A stretch of 62,503 nt of DNA from a virus, in the IMG/VR virus record IMGVR_UViG_3300047157_000129, positions 1 through 62,503 of that record; one strand, given 5' to 3'. The notes below the pieces were generated by a model. That model did not search any database. It saw nothing but the letters and a program-made list of their open reading frames with translations, and was not told the DNA's origin. Numbering within the stretch: the stretch's first letter is position 1; every line of letters begins with the position of its first letter. Both the position numbers and the translations under genes were made by a program. This document shows, piece after piece, positions 1,798 to 57,839 of this stretch.

Positions 1798-2910
1798 ATG
1801 AGCGAAGAACTGTTACCCCAAGACTCTACCCCTGCTGTTGAATCTACCCCTGTTGAGAGCAGTGCGTCACCTGAGACTGTAGAGCAGACGAGTACCGAGA
1901 ATGTTGAAGCAGCACCCACGCCATCTGTTTGGGACTCTTTCAAAGGACTGCCTGACTTCGAAGGTCAGGACGAGCGTAGCATTGCTCAAAATCTTTATGA
2001 GTCGTTTGAGCGTGAAAAGGCTGCAAGGCATTCTCTTGAACAGTATCAGCAGCTTATTCCGTATGCTCAAGAGTACATGGAGCACAAGGATGCGTTTGAG
2101 AGCTGGCGTAATGGTCAGGCTCAACCGCAGCAACCTCAACAGCCTGCGCGACAAGCTCCTCAAAAGGAAGAGCGAGCCCCGTGGTTGGGGCCAGAAGTTA
2201 AGCCTGAGCACAAGCGTTACCTTGTCAAGGACGAGAATGGGCGAGATGCGATTGCTGAGAATGCTCCGTTGGATGCGAGGTATTCGCTAGAGAATTACTT
2301 ACAGCATCGAGCAGACTTTGCTCAGAACTTCTAAACAATCCAGAAGAGGCGTTGGGTCCGATGATCCAGCAGCAGGCTCAGCAGATTGCTCAGCAGATGA
2401 TTGAGCAGGAGCTTGGTAATCGTGACGAGCAGTCAATATGTTCAGACATTAGAGCAAGAAAACGCAGATTGGCTGTATGAGAGCAGACGGCAAGACTCCG
2501 ACTCAAGAAGGTTTGGCTGTTCAGCAGTACATTCAGCAAGCTGCCGAATGGGCATCGAACAGGTGCCGAGCAGCGTTGGCAATACGCCACAGCAATGGTT
2601 GAAAGAGACCTGTTAAACAGGGTTCGCCAAAACGAAGCTCAGCAGCTCAAAGTCCCAGCAGTTTTCCCAGCAATTACCGCCTCAACAAGCAGCAGCTCCA
2701 GCACCGCAACAGCCCCAGCAGGTACCTCCCGTTGCACAAAATTCCGCTGAAAAGGACATAGAGTTCTTAAGAAGGGAAGCTTCTCGTAACCCGAGTCGCG
2801 GGGCTGGTCAACCGAATCAAGGTTCATCCGATGGGGGTGGACAATCGTTTGAGGCAGAGGTTGAAGTCACAACTTCAAAGAGACAACTTAATTTGAAAAG
2901 GACAGACTAA
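1798..2910 (+). CDS. head scaffolding protein, frameshifted in this sequence
   Basis: The intact first part (1798-2334, 178 aa) is acidic and Gln/Pro-rich, typical of capsid scaffolds directly upstream of a major capsid gene. After the stop at 2332 the same low-complexity Q/A/E-rich protein continues in other frames to a TAA at 2908-2910 that overlaps the capsid ATG (TAATG). Frame changes fall near 2333 (one base lost), 2433, 2482, 2561 and 2655 (one base gained each). The restored protein would be about 370 aa, ending in a basic tail. Each segment reads as sensible protein, so this is probably an intact gene damaged by sequence or assembly errors. A decayed gene is the alternative. Confidence 0.72.
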
Positions 2911-4031
2911 TGGCGTCAAGCACTGATTGGGCAAGGACGATTGGTACGACCTTAGTCCTTCATTTGAAGGAAGAAGAGCTAGCTACTTTTCGTAAGTACA
3001 AGGTCTTTGCACTTCTTGAAGGCAGCGGTCGTGTCGCAATGAATCAGGGAGGTCGTGGCTTCGACTGGGAAGTCAGATACCGTAATCAACCTGTGACCTC
3101 GAACACAGGTGAGTCAGCGAGAGTATTCGCTCGGCACAACCTATGGCAGCGAGCCAACCTTCCATATCGTGGTTACAGCGTGACCGATATGGTAACAAAA
3201 CGGGAGATGCTCGAAAATCGTGGAGTTTCCCAGCTCATCGACGTAGCCGGTAAAATGGCAAGTCGTTTCAAGAGTCTATGCAAGAGCAGCTTGGCCAAGA
3301 GATTTACGTTGACGGGAATCTTCCCGGTAACGAAAACCGATGGCATGGTCTTGAGTCTATCTTCGGTGTAAACGGTTCCGTTAACATTGACGACTGGGGC
3401 TCACGAGACAACTGCACGAGCAGAAGATCCATTCCTCTGGCCAGATGACATCTATGCTGGTCTTAGCACAGAGCTTGGTGCTCTTGGTGGTGCACAGCGA
3501 GAAGCTGGCTCATGGCCATATGTACCAGTGATCCAGAGTATGATTACTACTCTCCACTGGTAGTTAACTACAACTCTAGCTTCTTCGGTGGCGCAACAAC
3601 GTCATGGAAGGATCAGTGCATCGAAGCCATCCGCGAGGGTGTCCAACACGCCAAGCGAAACGACACGAAGGAATCACAGATTGATCTCGTGTTGCTTAAC
3701 AGGAAGCTCTACATTGACTTCCTCAATCGCTTAGACAGTCGTGAGCGAGCAATCGTTACGAAGACTGCAGGTCTCGAAGCTATGGCTTCGGCGATGTAGT
3801 CGAAATGGACGGCATCGAAGTTTCGACCGAGTACGCCATTCCATCCGACACAGGGTACGCCTGTCCATCGGAAACATGGAAATGAAGTGCATGGAAGGCC
3901 AGTTGATGACTGGCGAAGGTCCTTACTACAACGAAGAGCTTCAAGCGCATCGTTACGCTGTAAGCGTACTTGCCAACTTGAAGTTCAAGAGTCCACGTAA
4001 CTTTGTCAAGTTCTCACCACAACCTGCTTAA
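2910..4031 (+). CDS. major capsid protein, frameshifted in this sequence
   Basis: Position after the scaffold, length (about 374 aa when restored) and composition indicate the major capsid protein. The reading starts at 2910 and first stops at 3371. The protein continues in other frames through 3512-3799 and about 3862-4031. Shifts fall near 3270, 3400, 3520, 3777 and 3860. Restored segments include EIYVDGNLPGNENRWHGLES after the first shift and NYNSSFFGGATTSWKD after the third. The final frame ends in TAA at 4029-4031. The changes are mixed single-base losses and gains, some in short homopolymers (AA before GAG at 3270; GGGG at 3396-3399). An intact essential capsid gene in the real phage is the likely truth. 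Confidence 0.75.
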
Positions 4032-4049
4032 GAAGAGGAAAGATAAGCA

Positions 4050-4431
4050 ATGTCAACTTTAACTTCAGATCCGAAGTTTGATCGCGGCAAGACGCTTGGC
4101 ATCAACGTCGCGTATTATGACTCGGTAAATCAACCACAGGACTTGCAGGTTGGTGACGGTCTGTCGGTGATTGGGCAACACTCGGTATTCCGAGATGAGA
4201 ACCCAAGCACTGGAGCACTGTACAGCAATTTGACAGTCGAATGTGTCGCAGTAAAGAATGTCGGTGCCGATGTTCTTCAGTGCGGCGATACAGTTCAGCT
4301 TGATCCAACAGACGCACGACCACTTGGCGACAACTGAAGGTGCTGACGCAACCCTTTACGGGATTGTTGATGAGTACCTCACAGCACCTGTCAAAGTAGG
4401 CGAAGTCTGCTGGGTAGTAGTCGACCTCTGA
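4050..4431 (+). CDS. capsid decoration/stabilisation-like protein, one frameshift
   Basis: The small protein (about 127 aa when restored) follows the capsid gene by 18 bases with an AGAGGAAAG Shine-Dalgarno. It reads from ATG 4050 to a stop at 4337. A single extra base near 4326 accounts for the break, because the next frame continues ATTEGADATLYGIVDEYLTA to a TGA at 4429-4431. Small beta-rich proteins immediately after the major capsid protein are usually head decoration proteins in tailed phages. The assignment rests on position, size and composition, not on a recognised domain. Confidence 0.6.
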
Positions 4432-50084: not shown

Positions 50085-50115
50085 CACGTTTGAAACAGGT
50101 GAGAGTGAGGTGATC

Positions 50116-50718
50116 ATGAGACGGCTGAGGTTAGTGATAGCTGGGTTCCTAATTGCAGGGATCGTGACAGCAAGTGCGGACGCATTTATCTTTAGGAGGA
50201 TGCGGGCTCGGAGATCTTCTGGTCGTGGTGCATTCTCTTCCTCGCGGCAGTCGCGTGGCATGGGCATGTTGTTCCGACGACGATCATCCTCTAGTTCCTC
50301 TAAGTCTGCATCCAGTGGACGCAGCTCACAGTGGAACGTGGAAGGCCAGTGGAACTACAGCACTGCATTCCTTGCTGAGCATTTACAGCAGGTGCATGGC
50401 ATTGATACTACTGGCATGAGCCGAAGTCAGATGCAGCAAGCGCATGACAACGCACACAATGGAGTAAAGATCACCGCAGGTCTTGGTCCTATCAGTGCTG
50501 GTGGTCCATGCGATGGCTGTCCTTTGCAGGGTTGCTGTCCTAGTTGCGTACAGCCACAGAACGAAGAAGTTGTAGAGGCAATCGTAGAGCCAGCAGAAAC
50601 AATCACAATTATTGAGCAGCCTGCTGCATCATCAAGCAGCTCGTGTCCTAGTGGAACCTGTCCCACCTCACGAGGCTCATCATCTACCCGTAGACGAGGG
50701 CTATTCCGACGATGGTAA
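50116..50718 (+). CDS. secreted protein with signal peptide, 200 aa
   Basis: MRRLRLVIAGFLIAGIVTAS followed by ADA gives a clear Sec signal peptide with cleavage near residue 23. The mature part is Arg/Ser-rich, with a conserved-looking helical segment (FLAEHLQQVHGIDTTGM, then NAHNG), a cysteine cluster CDGCPLQGCCPSC, and an Arg-rich end. A periplasmic or surface location is inferred. First gene of the probable lysis/envelope region. No enzyme motif is recognised. Confidence 0.72.
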   Translation: MRRLRLVIAGFLIAGIVTASADAFIFRRMRARRSSGRGAFSSSRQSRGMGMLFRRRSSSSSSKSASSGRSSQWNVEGQWNYSTAFLAEHLQQVHGIDTTGMSRSQMQQAHDNAHNGVKITAGLGPISAGGPCDGCPLQGCCPSCVQPQNEEVVEAIVEPAETITIIEQPAASSSSSCPSGTCPTSRGSSSTRRRGLFRRW

Positions 50719-51032
50719 TTGCAGCATTAAACTTTGACTTACAGACTATCCTCGTAATCATTGGGGCTTTAGTCTTAGTGTTCTTCCCGCAGATCAAGAA
50801 GGCTGTTGAGTCATTAAAGAATCAGACTCCTGTTGTTCCTGACGAAGTGTCAGACGAAAGGTCTAAGGCTGAGTGGATTGTGCTGTTGTCAGAGCTGCAG
50901 AAGCAGACTCATGCAGCAGGGTACATCAAGGCAGAGCAGCTGACATGTGAGCTGACCACTGAGTTGGTGTGCAACTGCAATCCTCCTCCAGTACAAGAGA
51001 CCGTAGTCACAGTAACAAAGGCAATGATATGA
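50712..51032 (+). CDS. small membrane protein, holin candidate, 106 aa
   Basis: One transmembrane helix near residues 10-26 (LQTILVIIGALVLVFF), then a soluble helical part and three cysteines near residues 79-89 (CELTTELVCNC). It overlaps its neighbours on both sides. Size, single helix and context make a holin or spanin-type role possible, not demonstrated. Confidence 0.6.
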   Translation: MVIAALNFDLQTILVIIGALVLVFFPQIKKAVESLKNQTPVVPDEVSDERSKAEWIVLLSELQKQTHAAGYIKAEQLTCELTTELVCNCNPPPVQETVVTVTKAMI

Positions 51033-51484
51033 ATGGCAACGCCAGCTTCTTTATAAGGGTAGCCCTTGCGCTGGGGCTAGCTGCATATGCTCTTGGACTT
51101 ACCGATGGTGGTGGGGGTGGTGGAAAGCCTGCACCGTCAGAACCATACACTGGTTCAATGACCGCTGTGCATTCTGCTGCCGAATCAATGAAGCCTGAAG
51201 ACAGGGCTGTCATGAGTGAGGCGTTTAGCACAGGTGGTGACATGCTGTCAGCTGACAAAAGAAACCTAGTTGATACGACTGAGGTAGCACAGGATTTTGT
51301 ATTTGGCATCCTGTCCTTTTCGTACAACGGTGTAGGTCAGCCAGTAGAGAAGTACCCAGCAGTAGCTGATGCCATAGAGGCAGAGCTTCGCAAGGTATAT
51401 GGAGATGAGATCACGAGCCTATCCCCATCGCAGAAGGACGAGGTAGTACGGACACTCAAAGAGATAGGTAAGGCGGTGAGGTAA
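51029..51484 (+). CDS. membrane-anchored protein, 151 aa
   Basis: ATG 51029 (ATGA overlap) begins a protein with an N-terminal hydrophobic helix (FFIRVALALGLAAYALGL), a GGGGGG linker and a soluble helical domain of about 110 residues. The longer reading from 50969 overlaps the preceding gene without a ribosome site. Possibly a signal-anchor protein acting in the periplasm with the neighbouring peptidase. Confidence 0.62.
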   Translation: MNGNASFFIRVALALGLAAYALGLTDGGGGGGKPAPSEPYTGSMTAVHSAAESMKPEDRAVMSEAFSTGGDMLSADKRNLVDTTEVAQDFVFGILSFSYNGVGQPVEKYPAVADAIEAELRKVYGDEITSLSPSQKDEVVRTLKEIGKAVR

Positions 51485-51591
51485 TGAACCTTATGCCAGT
51501 AAGTGAGTTCTTGATACTAGCGTTAGCCGGAGCAATCGCTGCCGGTTTTATTGTTTGGTTATGTGGAGACATAGACAGATGGCGAGACTGA
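51484..51591 (+). CDS. 35-aa single-helix membrane peptide
   Basis: ATG 51484 overlaps the upstream TAA (TAATG). The peptide is nearly all one transmembrane helix (FLILALAGAIAAGFIVWLC) with a charged tail (GDIDRWRD). It overlaps the peptidase start by 13 bases. Very small hydrophobic peptides beside a lytic enzyme gene often act in lysis timing. Confidence 0.6.
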   Translation: MNLMPVSEFLILALAGAIAAGFIVWLCGDIDRWRD

Positions 51592-52631
51592 AAACATACC
51601 GAGAGCGATTCAAGAACAACGAACTACCTGACCCGCAGGACTTCAAGAATGTGGAGGAGCTGGTCAACGCCTATGACAATGGGTTTGAGGGGGCAATCTT
51701 CGATCCCGATGGGGCTGAAGAAATAGAGATGGGTCGGTACGGTAGCATGTCAGCTACGGCTGAAGAGTTTGGCTTTGCAGATCAAGGCAAGGGCAAGCTA
51801 ACGCTTTTGTATCCAGAGGTTTGGAAGGCAGCTGGGCGCTCTGACTTTTTTCACGGCGAGCCAAATCAGGCATGCGGTGATTGCGTCTCACACTCATGCA
51901 AGCACACACTCATCACCTCGATGGCAGTCAGTGCTAACAACGGTCAGGGTTCTTGGCCACAGATACCAGACGCAGGCTACAAATACGGCGCATTTCATCC
52001 AAGCCCTACCTACTGGTTGAGAGGGAAAAATTCTGATGGTTGGTCGTGCAGTACGGCAATCAAACGTGCGACCGATGGTATTGGGATGGTGATTTGTCAG
52101 GACTATCCGGCACCGCTTGGAATGAATCTCGCAGCATACAGCAAGAGCATCGCACACAAGTGGGGTAGTCAGTCGCCACCATCAGAAGTAAAAGAACAGC
52201 TTGGTGGTCACAAGGTCAAGTCATCCTCTCGATGCAAGAGCTGGGAAACTGTACGTGATGCGATCAGTGCAGGCTATGCGCTGTGTACCTGCGGGGGCGA
52301 AGGCTTCAGCAAGAGTCGTGATAGTAATGGCGTAAGTAAACGCAGTGGATCATGGAGTCATGCGCTCACCTACGTGGCTTGCGACGATACAGAGTGGGCG
52401 CACAAGAACTACGGTGGTCCATTGGTATTGATCTTGAACTCATGGGGACCGAGCTGGAACAACGATAACGGCCCGTACCCACAGGGCAACACGAGCCTAC
52501 CAAAGATACCTCGTGGTAGCTTCTGGGCTAAATGGAGTGACATCAAGAACCGTGACTGCTATGCGGTCTCAGATCTCAACGGATTTCCAAATAGAAAACT
52601 CAAGGACTGGAGTCTTCGGGATTTAATCTAA
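51579..52631 (+). CDS. papain-like (C1 family) cysteine peptidase, 350 aa
   Basis: All three papain landmarks are present in order: NQACGDCVSHSC with the oxyanion Gln97 and nucleophile Cys102, SHALTYVACDD with His261, and LILNSWGPSWNNDNG with Asn287. This is the C1 (cathepsin/papain) arrangement, not a CHAP amidase. There is no signal peptide. The first ~95 residues could be a propeptide. Start ATG 51579 was chosen because the longer reading lacks a site; ribosome site weak. Lying among membrane and secreted proteins, it may degrade host envelope proteins or peptides at lysis. A capsid-maturation role is less likely so far from the head genes. Confidence 0.87.
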   Translation: MARLKTYRERFKNNELPDPQDFKNVEELVNAYDNGFEGAIFDPDGAEEIEMGRYGSMSATAEEFGFADQGKGKLTLLYPEVWKAAGRSDFFHGEPNQACGDCVSHSCKHTLITSMAVSANNGQGSWPQIPDAGYKYGAFHPSPTYWLRGKNSDGWSCSTAIKRATDGIGMVICQDYPAPLGMNLAAYSKSIAHKWGSQSPPSEVKEQLGGHKVKSSSRCKSWETVRDAISAGYALCTCGGEGFSKSRDSNGVSKRSGSWSHALTYVACDDTEWAHKNYGGPLVLILNSWGPSWNNDNGPYPQGNTSLPKIPRGSFWAKWSDIKNRDCYAVSDLNGFPNRKLKDWSLRDLI

Positions 52632-53209
52632 TGCCTTACAAGACAAAAGAAGAAAAGAAAGAGTACGACAGACAGAGATACCTTGCCAAGAAGGAAGAGG
52701 TCAAGGCTCGTGTCAAGAAGTACCGAGAGGATAACCCAGAGAAAGTCTTTGAGCAGAAGAGGAAGTACCGGGAAGAGCATAAAGAAGAGATAGCAGCACA
52801 GAAGCGAGCTGCATATCAGGCTAATCCGGAGCCCGCAAAGAGGCGAGCAAGAGAGTGGCGCAAGGCAAATCGTGCTAAGCTAAACGCTTACCAGAAGAAT
52901 CGACTAGACACCAATAAGAATGCAAGCATGGCGCATCAGATACGAATGCGCGTTGCAAAATATATTCATCGTCATGAAACCTGTGAAGAGTTAGGCTGTA
53001 CAATACGAGAGCTGAGAGAATATCTGTCATCAAAGTTTCTTGATGGAATGACGTGGCAGAACTATGGTGATTGGCATGTGGATCACATTAAACCGCTGGC
53101 TTCGTTTGACCTTACGGACGAGGAACAATTCAAAGAGGCCTGCAACTATACAAACCTCCAGCCTATGTGGGGTAAGGACAACTATGCTAAAGGAAGGAAG
53201 CTATGTTGA
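52631..53209 (+). CDS. HNH endonuclease, 192 aa
   Basis: The C-terminal 60 residues carry the phage HNH signature: DWHVDHIKPLASFDL (HVDHI) and TNLQPMWGKDNYAKG. The first 100 residues are Lys/Glu/Arg-rich with repeated (K/R)YREDNPEK-like units, as in free-standing phage homing-type endonucleases. It begins in a TAATG overlap and interrupts the lysis-type block, consistent with a mobile endonuclease. Confidence 0.85.
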   Translation: MPYKTKEEKKEYDRQRYLAKKEEVKARVKKYREDNPEKVFEQKRKYREEHKEEIAAQKRAAYQANPEPAKRRAREWRKANRAKLNAYQKNRLDTNKNASMAHQIRMRVAKYIHRHETCEELGCTIRELREYLSSKFLDGMTWQNYGDWHVDHIKPLASFDLTDEEQFKEACNYTNLQPMWGKDNYAKGRKLC

Positions 53210-53889
53210 AGTCGACGACGAAGAGCTTGATGCTGAGCTTGATGACATGTTGTTGTTTGGTAATGATTGTTGGTTGCGATCCGGTTGAGGAGAAGGAATA
53301 CCTAGACCTCACTGAGAAGACACAGCTTGGTGCATATATTTCTCTGGCTGTGGTGGCAAGCACACCCGAACCAGATGGTGGCGGGGGCAAGTTACAGGTA
53401 GGTGATGAGTGTCCAGACTGTCTCGGTCGTGGGATGGTTGGTGACGGCACGATAGAAAATAAGTGCAGCCGTTGTAATGGCACCGGAAAAATACAACAAG
53501 GCGATCCCGATGTGGCAGCCATAGTAAATGACTTCAATGAAACTGTTATGACTAACGCAGATGTGGCAGAGTGGATAAGTGCAGACTCACCAAAGGCATG
53601 CTTGTGCGATCCGGCTTGTCCTGATTGTGACGGCAAGTGCGATCCATGTGATTGTTTGTTTTGTCTACCCCGCAAGGATCCTCTACCCTCCCCAACAGAG
53701 CCTGAGACTGTTCGAAGGAACGGACAGCTTTACCGCAAGGAAGGCGACATGTTAGTGCCTGTTGAGGAAGTAAAAGATGTCAGAACAAAATCAATCGGAG
53801 ACAACACAACCAGTAACCGCAGACCTTTCAGGTCTTTTCAAAATTGGGGAAAGGTTTGGGATTCCCCTGTTGCTATTGGTTGCAGTTAG
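53203..53889 (+). CDS. lipoprotein with DnaJ-like zinc motifs, 228 aa
   Basis: The N-terminus has a signal sequence ending in a lipobox (MIVGC, Cys25), so lipidation and membrane anchoring are predicted. Residues about 66-97 contain CPDCLGRGMVGDGT and CSRCNGTGK, the CxxCxGxG motif of DnaJ zinc fingers. A second cysteine cluster (CLCDPACPDCDGKCDPCDCLFC) follows. The last 37 residues overlap the next gene in another frame and look non-conserved. Outer-spanin-like anchoring or a redox/metal role are possible. Confidence 0.68.
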   Translation: MLKSTTKSLMLSLMTCCCLVMIVGCDPVEEKEYLDLTEKTQLGAYISLAVVASTPEPDGGGGKLQVGDECPDCLGRGMVGDGTIENKCSRCNGTGKIQQGDPDVAAIVNDFNETVMTNADVAEWISADSPKACLCDPACPDCDGKCDPCDCLFCLPRKDPLPSPTEPETVRRNGQLYRKEGDMLVPVEEVKDVRTKSIGDNTTSNRRPFRSFQNWGKVWDSPVAIGCS

Positions 53890-54181
53890 TTATGTCACGT
53901 TCAACGAGATCATCAAACCTATTGCATTGAAATATGTAGAGGTACTTGATGAGGTTCGTTCAAACAATAAAGAACTGAAGGATGCATTGTTCGTAATTGG
54001 TGAGTCAAACAAAGATAACATCAGTCGCATTGTCGACGACCTCGACGAGATGGATCAAAGCATCAAGAAGATGAACCTTACGCTGGCAGAGCTGACACTG
54101 ATAGCAAGGCGAGTACAAAATGAAGGGAAAGCGTCGTCGCCTTACGAAGCGCCAGAAAGCGATAGCGGAGGAGGCTATTGA
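53777..54181 (+). CDS. membrane protein with coiled coil, holin/spanin-like, 134 aa
   Basis: One transmembrane helix near residues 28-45 (FGIPLLLLVAVSYVTF) followed by a long coiled coil (VLDEVRSNNKELKDALF...IVDDLDEMDQSIKKM) and a Gly-rich end. This layout fits an inner-membrane spanin or a pinholin-type protein. It overlaps the lipoprotein gene by 113 bases, as embedded spanin pairs do. Confidence 0.62.
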   Translation: MSEQNQSETTQPVTADLSGLFKIGERFGIPLLLLVAVSYVTFNEIIKPIALKYVEVLDEVRSNNKELKDALFVIGESNKDNISRIVDDLDEMDQSIKKMNLTLAELTLIARRVQNEGKASSPYEAPESDSGGGY

Positions 54182-54662
54182 CATAATCCCTCATGCTATC
54201 AGGGGGTTCAAAAGATCTTATCCGGGTATTGAAAGTAAACTGGCTAGAATAGATTCGGTCAGTGTTGCGCACGTTGCCATAGTAATGGCAGCTCGTACGT
54301 ATGATCCGAAGAAGTCAAAGCTAACGACTTACTTCACAAGAGCAATCCATAATTGGTTACTCAAAGAGATCGACCGAGAGAAACGATTGAGATACGGTAG
54401 TACAGATCGCATACCGTTGGCCCTAGTAGAAAGTGAGTTGGACGCAGAGCAATGGAAGGAAGACCTTGCCAATGCCATGCTGTCCCTCACTGATGAACAA
54501 CGCCAGTTGATTAGGGCTAGATACTTTTCAGCCAAGACCTTTGAGGAAATGGCGAAAGAGTTTGATTGTGATCGACGCACTGTGCGCCGGAGGTTGATGG
54601 AGGTACTTAGCTTTCTTGAATCTTTGGATAACCCTCTTGACGACTTATCAGAATCTGCCTGA
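54120..54662 (+). CDS. phage-encoded sigma-70-family factor, 180 aa
   Basis: Residues about 50-90 (AHVAIVMAARTYDPKKSKLT, then TYFTRAIHNWLLKEID) match sigma region 2, and residues about 120-166 (LSLTDEQRQLIRARYF, then TFEEMAKEFDCDRRTVRRRL) match region 4 with its helix-turn-helix. It lacks regions 1 and 3, as ECF or SigH-like factors do. It would redirect host RNA polymerase; its promoters are unknown. It overlaps the upstream gene by 62 bases and the convergent recombinase gene by 56. Confidence 0.78.
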   Translation: MKGKRRRLTKRQKAIAEEAIDIIPHAIRGFKRSYPGIESKLARIDSVSVAHVAIVMAARTYDPKKSKLTTYFTRAIHNWLLKEIDREKRLRYGSTDRIPLALVESELDAEQWKEDLANAMLSLTDEQRQLIRARYFSAKTFEEMAKEFDCDRRTVRRRLMEVLSFLESLDNPLDDLSESA

Positions 54663-55384: not shown

Positions 55385-55750
55385 CTAATTCAAGTTACGT
55401 CCGATAGCGTCATGCATTTGACGCCAGACTTGTCGCTTCTGTTTAGTGATGGCTATCTCAGCGCATGCTAAGAAAGCACCAAACATAACTTTGACGCACG
55501 TGCCGTATGGCATCGTGTTTACATTGTCAACTGAATACATGCCGACAGCGTATGAGGTATGAGACAAAGCACGAATTGCAAAGGAAGCATCAGTTGACTC
55601 TGGTGTTCCTAGTTCGTTATGTGCTTTACGCAACAGTTTCATCTCGTGTTCAAATAACGCTCGACCTAGCCTACGTGGGTTGCCGATGTGCTTTACCACG
55701 AAAGCATTGATGTAGTTTTCGTTGACTTCGATATGTCGCTTATGATCCAT
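55385..55750 (-). CDS. hypothetical protein, 121 aa
   Basis: Start at 55750 (MDHKRHIEVNENYI), overlapping the amidotransferase stop by 11 bases; the longer reading would add an out-of-place hydrophobic N-terminus. Helical and polar, no domain recognised. As last gene of the amidoligase operon it may be a partner or substrate-binding protein. Confidence 0.68.
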   Translation of the reverse strand: MDHKRHIEVNENYINAFVVKHIGNPRRLGRALFEHEMKLLRKAHNELGTPESTDASFAIRALSHTSYAVGMYSVDNVNTMPYGTCVKVMFGAFLACAEIAITKQKRQVWRQMHDAIGRNLN

Positions 55751-56660
55751 TAGTGTAGCTCTCCTCATTGTTGGCAAGCCACTCAGTAGGCATAGGCTCG
55801 TAATGAATAGCAAGGGTGTCAAGGATGTCAGGGTCGTGGTTGTACAGATCCCTGATGATATGCACTGGGATACCTAGTGACTCGCATGTCTTAGCGTTCT
55901 CATAGTCTTGATGTAATGCGGAGACAGGAATGATATCTTCAGTGTCGTAAGCAATGTCATGCTGCACACGTTCAGCAACCTCGATAGCATCTTGCTGTGC
56001 CAGTCGCGTTGACTGGTTGGAGCGAGCTGCACTGCAGGCTGCTGTGACAGACGAGTAACCAACGCCTGAGTAAACCTTGCGCTGGGGTGGCAAGCTGTAC
56101 GTCGTTGCAGCGTACGGCTTGTACGATCCGTTAGAGTACAGATGACCATCGTCGTGAGTCACCCAGTCTTTGTCATTCCATAGGTAGTGCTGACCTGATG
56201 TATCAAGGAAAGCAATCTTGGAATAAGCAATGTACTTCTCAGCCATGAGCTTGATGCCTACGTTGTCAACGAGGTCAGCGCCGAGCTGATCGTAGATAGG
56301 CTTGAGCACATGCTCGTTGAAGTTGTAAGTATCTGACCTGTCCTTGATAGTCATTGGGCAGGAGATAGTACCGTTGTGCATGAACACAAGGTCATTGCCT
56401 ACACGGAACGGGTGACAGTTAGTCATGTCAAGCGCACCGCCGGTTGACTTACGAAAGTGAATGAGGCAAGTGTACTCTTCGTACTGCTCAATCTCACGAG
56501 CGAAGTGCTCGAATGACGTAACGTCTTTGACAACAGTCAACGAGTTGCCATCGTCTTGTGCAAGGGCAAAGCCCCAGCCATCGGGATGGACTTTGTAACA
56601 GTGTTTGTATGTCTCCATATCAAACTTGGTGTCGAACGGTTTAACAATCGCAATACACAT
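55740..56660 (-). CDS. class II glutamine amidotransferase (Ntn-type), 306 aa
   Basis: Met1 is followed by Cys2, the N-terminal nucleophile of class II amidotransferases. DGWGFAL, HFRKSTGG (near 68-75), NCHPF and FMHNGTI (near 93-99) are the family's glutamine-binding and loop motifs. The enzyme would release ammonia from glutamine or hydrolyse a similar amide. The C-terminal 120 residues are divergent. Its gene starts 9 bases after the amidoligase stop, so the pair is probably co-translated. Confidence 0.88.
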   Translation of the reverse strand: MCIAIVKPFDTKFDMETYKHCYKVHPDGWGFALAQDDGNSLTVVKDVTSFEHFAREIEQYEEYTCLIHFRKSTGGALDMTNCHPFRVGNDLVFMHNGTISCPMTIKDRSDTYNFNEHVLKPIYDQLGADLVDNVGIKLMAEKYIAYSKIAFLDTSGQHYLWNDKDWVTHDDGHLYSNGSYKPYAATTYSLPPQRKVYSGVGYSSVTAACSAARSNQSTRLAQQDAIEVAERVQHDIAYDTEDIIPVSALHQDYENAKTCESLGIPVHIIRDLYNHDPDILDTLAIHYEPMPTEWLANNEESYTNGS

Positions 56661-56669
56661 TTGTAATAC

Positions 56670-57839
56670 CTATGGGGTAAAGGGAAGGGGAGTAACATTC
56701 ACAGCGCGGAAGCCTTGTGCTACACGGTCGTGAACAGATTGGGTCATAGCCCATGCAGCAAACGGATAGACATGTTTGTGCTTGGCTAGGTATGCACCGA
56801 TGTGACTAGATGTCACGTGCAGTGCGGTTCGCATTGGGCATTGACTGAAGTATGCAAGCCACACTTGAGTCATCTGCATGTTGGACAAGATGCGTATCGG
56901 GTTGGTCGCAGAACGAAACAACCTGAACTCCATCAAGCCCTGTTGCACTTTGTAATTCAGCGGCGAATACTTTTGCGTGAAGCCACGTGCATCACCACGA
57001 AACGCATGAGCAAGGTGACGCATGCCAAGCGGACGCTGCTGAAGATAAGTGCTTGAGTAACGACCACCTAGCGAATTGTAATCTTCGCCAGTGCAGTTGT
57101 TGAGAAAGTAACACAGCTTGAGCCACGTCAAAGGTGTCGCTGCCATGTGACATGTTGTTATGTGCATGCCGCATGACTCGTTGTACCATGAGTGAGCGCC
57201 GGGTAGCCATGTACTAAACGCATTGAAGTCATCGCACGAGCTGCCATACTCAACGCGACTGTCAAGCATACTGTGCAGTAGCTTGAACTTGTAGCGCTGG
57301 GTCTTGTGTCTGACAGCACGCCAGTCAAATGACCGTGCCTCCTCCGAGCCCATCGTGCAGGCAAGCAGGAAGTTGTAGTGATCGTCAAAGGTAACTGGTG
57401 CAGTTATCAGTTCACCCTTGTCATCACCTCGTATGCTGCCGTCGTCGACGATGCGTATGAAATCATTACGCACACGCACGTCTTTGATAGGCAGCTGCTT
57501 GAACACACGGTTGGCGCGCATGATGTGGTGACGTCCTAAGTCTGACACCTCTATCTCTACGCCAAAGTTCTGCAACTCTTTGAGTGAGTCACGAGTGCAA
57601 CCGTCTGGCATGTGCGCGTAATTGCGACGGCGCAGAGGATGTAGATACGCTTGGCTAGATCCGCATTCGCACGGGTCTTCCAAACAATCTTGACATATGC
57701 ACTCACACTCAGAGCAGTCACAGTCGTAGCAGCATTCGCAAGGACGATCCTCGCTGTTAGCATCCCACTCTGTGCCACAGACATAGCAATCTACTATGTC
57801 TTGTGGATCTGCATCATAATCTTCTGTTGCTGGCATCAT
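56670..57839 (-). CDS. amidoligase (glutamine-synthetase-like fold) with cysteine-rich N-terminus, 389 aa
   Basis: Residues 18-59 hold 13 cysteines, a probable zinc-binding module. The catalytic part follows the amidoligase pattern: FGVEIEV (93-98), VDDGSI (131-136), GELITAP (142-148), CGMHIT (223-228) and LMEFRLFRSATN (302-313). Such enzymes join a carboxyl to an amine using ATP, making isopeptide or peptide-like bonds. The glutamine amidotransferase is downstream. ATG 57839 has AGGAGG close upstream. Substrate unknown: cell-wall peptide, phage protein or small molecule. Confidence 0.85.
   Translation of the reverse strand: MMPATEDYDADPQDIVDCYVCGTEWDANSEDRPCECCYDCDCSECECICQDCLEDPCECGSSQAYLHPLRRRNYAHMPDGCTRDSLKELQNFGVEIEVSDLGRHHIMRANRVFKQLPIKDVRVRNDFIRIVDDGSIRGDDKGELITAPVTFDDHYNFLLACTMGSEEARSFDWRAVRHKTQRYKFKLLHSMLDSRVEYGSSCDDFNAFSTWLPGAHSWYNESCGMHITTCHMAATPLTWLKLCYFLNNCTGEDYNSLGGRYSSTYLQQRPLGMRHLAHAFRGDARGFTQKYSPLNYKVQQGLMEFRLFRSATNPIRILSNMQMTQVWLAYFSQCPMRTALHVTSSHIGAYLAKHKHVYPFAAWAMTQSVHDRVAQGFRAVNVTPLPFTP

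Follow-up and report, generated by a model that had tools for sequence, protein, structure and literature searches.

Gene content of the peptidase locus

The window, i.e. the whole stretch of 62,503 nucleotides of the viral record IMGVR_UViG_3300047157_000129 analysed in this study, contains at 50-54 kb a cassette of membrane, secreted and peptidase genes, with a tail-fibre-like gene on one side and a sigma-like gene on the other (Table 1). The open reading frame of the peptidase (51579-52631) is intact, its ATG is preceded by the ribosome-binding-like sequence GGAGA, and the start MA(R/K)LKT is common to the window protein and its relatives at the loci L001 and L003. Neither a membrane anchor nor a signal peptide could be read from the protease sequences of this clade.

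Table 1. Features of the peptidase cassette in the window, and HExxH and CAP proteins of related phages
Feature	Position	Strand	Basis or remark
Secreted Ser/Cys-rich protein with WNVEGQWNYST motif	50110-50718	+	Sequence
Small membrane protein, one N-terminal helix	50712-51032	+	Also in CAP/HExxH cassettes lacking the protease
Upstream partner: N-terminal membrane helix and domain of about 110 aa	51029-51484	+	Orthologues in L001, L003, L011
35-aa single-helix peptide MNLMPVSEFLILALAGAIAAGFIVWLCGDIDRWRD	51484-51591	+	Read from sequence; window-specific
Papain-like cysteine peptidase (predicted), 350 aa, soluble, without membrane anchor	51579-52631	+	Conservation, fold
Active-site codons	Q97 51867-51869; C102 51882-51884; H261 52359-52361; N287 52437-52439	+	
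HNH/endonuclease VII-like gene between protease and lipoprotein	52631-53209	+	PHROG 1035, E 1.3e-10
Lipoprotein, lipobox MIVGC, CxxCxGxG repeats; o-spanin-like position	53203-53889	+	Orthologues adjoin protease in L001, L003, L011
Membrane helix and coiled coil, overlaps lipoprotein gene	53777-54181	+	Orthologues in L001, L003, L011
Sigma-70-like factor, ends rightward block	54120-54662	+	Pooled Pfam scan: Sigma70_r4, ECF; assigned by sequence
HExxH and downstream DE pair family	L021 7271-8023; L030 4858-5625; L055 5704-6495; L063 4273-5028; L003 8742-9353		
Secreted CAP-domain (PF00188) proteins	L030 5915-6358; L045 7599-8078; L197 18110-18535		

Several of the neighbours recur in related phages. 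Orthologues of the upstream partner are located directly in front of the protease gene in L001, L003 and L011, and the profile of the partner also aligned with that of the gene at -1 in phages with a membrane-anchored protease (hhalign 88%, E 2.8e-6). The small membrane protein encoded at 50712-51032 is related to proteins of L021, L030, L045 and L055 (hhalign 85.5%, E 5.7e-6), and in L001 a segment matching the Ser/Cys-rich protein occurs as a fusion with the CxxCxGxG protein. The lipoprotein itself showed a weak match to DnaJ_CXXCXGXG (Pfam, E 0.021). For the coiled-coil protein, which may be holin-like or i-spanin-like, there was no Pfam family and no counterpart at the anchored-protease loci L094-L173. 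None of the membrane and lipoprotein genes of the window matched a named holin or spanin family in Pfam or PHROG significantly. The sigma-like gene lies where the rightward and leftward gene blocks meet.

The 35-aa peptide is encoded in another frame, overlapping both the stop of the partner gene and the start of the protease gene, and neither L001 nor L003 has room for a counterpart. It is possibly a very small holin. The idea that it represents the split-off anchor of the protease was not supported, as the proteins of L001 and L003 start with MARLKT/MAKLKT and no anchor is found upstream. The HNH gene is probably an inserted homing endonuclease outside the function of the cassette; a relative of it is present in G1 (L004/L005) at contig positions 23498-24325. 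A preliminary description of the locus had listed three membrane peptides, a secreted protein and a lipoprotein. The latter two were found as described, but the membrane proteins number four (starting at 50712, 51029, 51484 and 53777).

Fold and family of the peptidase

At sequence level the window protease gave no match in Pfam, PHROG or PDB, and neither this protein nor any of the 7 family members reached the Pfam cut-off of PF00112. Full-length alignment was possible with the proteins of L001 and L002 (58% identity) and L003 (45%); the L011 protease is 80% identical to that of L003, its reading frame being broken in its contig. Such end-to-end relatives, together with an unambiguous fold search, indicate a conserved gene rather than a chance reading frame. 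In an alignment of seven sequences with 27% identity the residues Q97, C102, H261, N287, S288, W289 and G290 are invariant, N287 forming part of the NSWG motif, and C102, H261, N287, S288 and W289 stayed invariant when 47 sequences were aligned. Q97 is likely an oxyanion-hole residue.

The AlphaFold2 model reached a pLDDT of 61 with 7 sequences, and with 47 sequences a pLDDT of 74 and a pTM of 0.79. In Foldseek searches its best PDB matches were xylellain and cathepsins, all members of C1, and the best matches among viral structures were named Peptidase C1. Using VIA-align, Z values of 18.5 to xylellain (3OIS) and 15.5 to Cwp84 (21% identity over 248 residues) were obtained; with the cathepsins included, the matches span Z 15-18. 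A papain fold of the window protein is thus well supported by the model, and cysteine peptidase activity can be predicted for it. The triad Cys102-His261-Asn287 with NSWG had been recognised beforehand as papain-like; these residues are as stated, are kept in the relatives and agree with the fold.

The window protease shares the Cys-His-Asn order, the Gln before the Cys, NSWG and the fold with the papain/cathepsin family (MEROPS C1A; xylellain, cathepsin B, Der p 1). It differs by its phage cassette context and by an identity of 12-17%, and it lies below PF00112 detection. The Gln-Cys spacing in the window clade is one residue shorter than in papain, whereas L050 and L053 keep the papain spacing. 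Cwp84 (4CI7, 4D59), the S-layer-associated protein of Clostridioides difficile, is a bacterial extracellular C1 enzyme of the same fold with an envelope protein as target; however, it is a cell-wall-anchored cellular protein with a lectin-like domain and no phage context. Phage proteins named Peptidase C1 (uncultured Caudovirales in BFVD, Streptomyces phage Shady) have the same fold at 10-16% identity to the window protease and no recognised common cassette.

Distribution of the family and membrane anchor

Via phages with related terminases and an iterated profile, a divergent form of the protease was reached, which is present in L039, L050, L051 and L053 and has at least 571 confirmed loci in IMG/VR. 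Papain-like enzymes had been called rare in tailed phages. This holds for named phages, where 50,697 records contained no relative of the window protease, but not for environmental phages. We regard these proteins as a large phage branch of papain-like enzymes, associated with an unusual membrane cassette and mostly unannotated. Neither Pfam nor PHROGs covers the family.

An N-terminal membrane helix is present in 43 of 46 non-redundant family members. In many of these Arg/Lys residues precede the helix and the catalytic domain follows it, an order that would be expected to put the domain on the outer side of the inner membrane. In the phylogenetic tree the window protein groups with those of L001 and L003 in a clade of its own (support 100/100), which sits on a very long branch and lacks the helix. 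The anchor was lost in this clade, to which L011 belongs as well. Members of podovirus type (L050, L053 and L096) are nested among those of siphovirus type, which indicates a transfer of the cassette between phage types. A SAR endolysin signature was looked for and rejected: the window protein has no anchor, and in the anchored relatives the G/A/S/T fraction of the anchor (0.41) is not distinctive compared with that of the partner gene (0.40).

Cassette and its slot in related phages

The order small membrane protein, membrane-anchored partner, protease, CxxCxGxG secreted protein or lipoprotein, and helix plus coiled coil was found in L001, L003 and L011. Elsewhere, at least 36 of 55 loci have an anchored partner immediately 5' of the protease, and at least 26 of 53 have a small membrane protein on its downstream side, PF04226 in one case. 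In G007 the cassette lies upstream of a sigma-like gene similar to that of the window. In L001 and L003 it has the capsid/decoration genes on one side and the terminase genes on the other, and in many siphovirus relatives it separates the HK97-type prohead protease gene from that of the major capsid protein.

In sister podoviruses that lack the protease, this slot is occupied by a conserved HExxH...DE protein, a CAP protein and a small membrane protein akin to that encoded at 50712. The HExxH...DE family, which has no Pfam family and an N-terminal helix in most members, probably represents a membrane-anchored metallopeptidase, judging by its sequence motifs. Secreted CAP-domain proteins are frequent in this set of phages: they were detected in 9 of 24 records, namely in five podoviruses with CAP in the slot and four protease-bearing siphoviruses, and in 0 protease-bearing podoviruses. 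The filling of the slot with HExxH...DE and CAP proteins in sister phages suggests that a peptidase is selected for at this place. In L066, L067, L072, L083 and L084 the slot is empty.

The location within the head module of L001/L003 and of the siphophages, as well as the solubility of the window-clade enzyme, would suit a protease that is packaged in or associated with the head and is either ejected with the DNA or processes virion proteins. We consider this improbable, since most relatives are membrane-anchored, sister phages do without the protease although they share the capsid and scaffold genes, and the siphophages already own a prohead protease. No sign that the protease is a virion component was seen. 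A capsid maturation protease in particular was rejected, because the five genomes with an empty slot carry the same capsid family without a papain-like protease.

Possible hosts

The only named match to the family, found among plasmids, was PLIM_RS21800 on pPLIM01 of Planctopirus limnophila (NC_014149), with a profile match of 4e-30, aligned Cys, His and Asn residues and an N-terminal membrane anchor. Its identity to anchored relatives is about 27% over 75-82% of their length, and it differs from the family by NSH in place of NSWG. The gene adjoins phage structural genes. Among the genes of pPLIM01 (L174 1-37010) are those for terminase, portal, capsid and tail, which make up a complete tailed-phage structural set, as well as integrase genes and a ParB-like gene, so that it has the appearance of a phage-plasmid. 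Because of this relative Planctomycetota are the likeliest hosts of the family, and the host of the window phage itself may be sought there as well. Scanning bacterial genomes with window-type protease queries revealed no prophage.

Planctomycetes were formerly thought to have an envelope dependent on protein, and the preliminary suggestion of a host with such an envelope fits this older view. It does not fit P. limnophila, which possesses a lysozyme-sensitive peptidoglycan sacculus containing DAP (PMC4432640). In the open-access literature searched we found no study on the exit of Planctomycetota phages from their hosts; the relative in cultured P. limnophila makes this question testable.

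Search for lysins

The 127-bp terminal repeat indicates that the window genome is complete. Its proteins contained no lysin or peptidoglycan hydrolase family in hmmscan searches against Pfam and PHROG, and the protease itself neither a recognisable peptidoglycan hydrolase domain nor a CHAP match. The earlier statement that no lysozyme, amidase or transglycosylase is visible therefore holds at HMM sensitivity, and the search for a canonical endolysin elsewhere in the genome found none. In 22-23 related records a genome screen for SLT, Amidase_2, M15_3, GH24, M23, CHAP and Amidase_3 was negative, too. This screen is weaker than hmmscan: it did detect the CAP domains mentioned above but missed GGACT, found at 4e-7 in one pooled window/pPLIM01 protein, in both records. 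Absence at hmmscan level covers the window together with 72 G021/G022 proteins and 19 from pPLIM01, and for the other related records it rests mainly on the less sensitive screen.

The sister phages G021 and G022, which lack the protease cassette, showed no recognisable lysin either in a pooled hmmscan of 72 proteins of up to 1,500 aa that lie within single pieces. The missing lysin is consequently either a feature of the whole group or a limit of the libraries, and a lysis role of the protease cannot be deduced by elimination. Of the proposal that the protease acts as endolysin, the papain-like identity is borne out by the structure, and extracytoplasmic action of the family by the anchors, the membrane neighbours and the planctomycete relative; the elimination step falls with G021/G022.

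Possible role of the cassette

We tentatively favour a late papain-fold peptidase which acts on a protein or peptide of the host envelope and aids progeny release, a reading that is plausible rather than established. Usual places of podovirus lysis genes are beside the terminase genes and in the stretch from a tail-fibre-like gene to the end of the rightward block. The cassette positions in L001/L003 and in the window, respectively, speak for this reading, as do the triad, the papain fold with its match to S-layer-associated Cwp84, the anchored relatives, the membrane neighbours, the HExxH...DE and CAP proteins in the slot of sister phages and the missing lysin of the window. Against it stand the equally lysin-free G021/G022 without the cassette, the siphophage position between prohead protease and major capsid gene, which is unusual for lysis, and an anchor composition no more SAR-like than that of neighbouring membrane genes.

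In such a process the small membrane and secreted proteins would be made together with the peptidase. The anchor of most relatives would hold the catalytic domain on the outer face of the inner membrane. In the window clade, where the anchor is gone and the coiled-coil gene 53777 and the lipoprotein gene 53203 are present, the soluble enzyme might reach the periplasm through a holin-like lesion formed by the neighbouring small membrane proteins, as ordinary endolysins do. The peptidase would then cut the protein or peptide part of the envelope late in infection, leading to release. Activity, export, late expression, substrate and lysis contribution of the protease cassette, like the holin and spanin roles, are what we infer. 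The pairing of a soluble enzyme with the coiled-coil gene is known from one clade. In functional terms the cassette resembles SAR endolysin and holin-endolysin-spanin modules in its anchored and soluble enzyme forms, its small membrane proteins and the lipoprotein beside a coiled-coil membrane gene; it differs in having no peptidoglycan hydrolase domain, and lysis by it is putative.

Alternatively, the enzyme might remodel the host surface or periplasm (superinfection exclusion, removal of a receptor or surface layer, non-lytic release) instead of lysing the cell. The stable anchor in most relatives, sister phages that dispense with the protease, the family member in a phage-plasmid and the report of a planctomycete phage released chronically without lysis (PMC10945688) are consistent with this. 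We nevertheless judge it unlikely, as the window clade has no anchor or signal peptide and would need another export route. Somewhat less likely still is a disguised peptidoglycan endopeptidase cleaving stem or cross-bridge peptides in the manner of CHAP and NlpC/P60, which are peptidoglycan hydrolases of papain fold (PMC10318531). The lysozyme-sensitive, DAP-containing sacculi of P. limnophila (PMC4432640) and the lack of another lysin in the window would agree with such an enzyme, but fold and NSWG match C1 proteases rather than CHAP, for which there was no match. A takeover enzyme that works inside the cell on cytoplasmic host proteins, with an incidental position among envelope genes, would explain the missing export signal of the window clade; with anchored relatives and envelope neighbours as the rule, we regard it as very improbable.

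If the enzyme lyses the cell, it would add a strategy of phage release other than peptidoglycan hydrolysis and close a gap in Pfam and PHROGs. A more general version, in which widespread phages, probably of Planctomycetota, are released by an anchored or soluble papain-like protease cassette that replaces any peptidoglycan hydrolase and whose peptidase is swapped for a metalloprotease/CAP pair in sisters, appears doubtful to us.

Further observations

Two leftward genes of the window presumably encode a class-II glutamine amidotransferase (55740-56660, minus strand) and an amidoligase (56670-57839, minus strand), and a set similar to this region (55740-57839) has reportedly been described for Phage-ZRK32. 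The Pfam scan of pooled window and pPLIM01 proteins, which is not resolved to single proteins, listed a class-II glutamine amidotransferase and a gamma-glutamylcyclotransferase-like protein. The amidoligase genome screen gave no match in the control records either.

Within window positions 1798-4422, four frame changes that compensate one another interrupt the capsid gene (2910-4031). Its scaffold and decoration neighbours seem frameshifted as well, and terminase, portal and protease genes are intact. These frame changes are likely sequencing or assembly indels.
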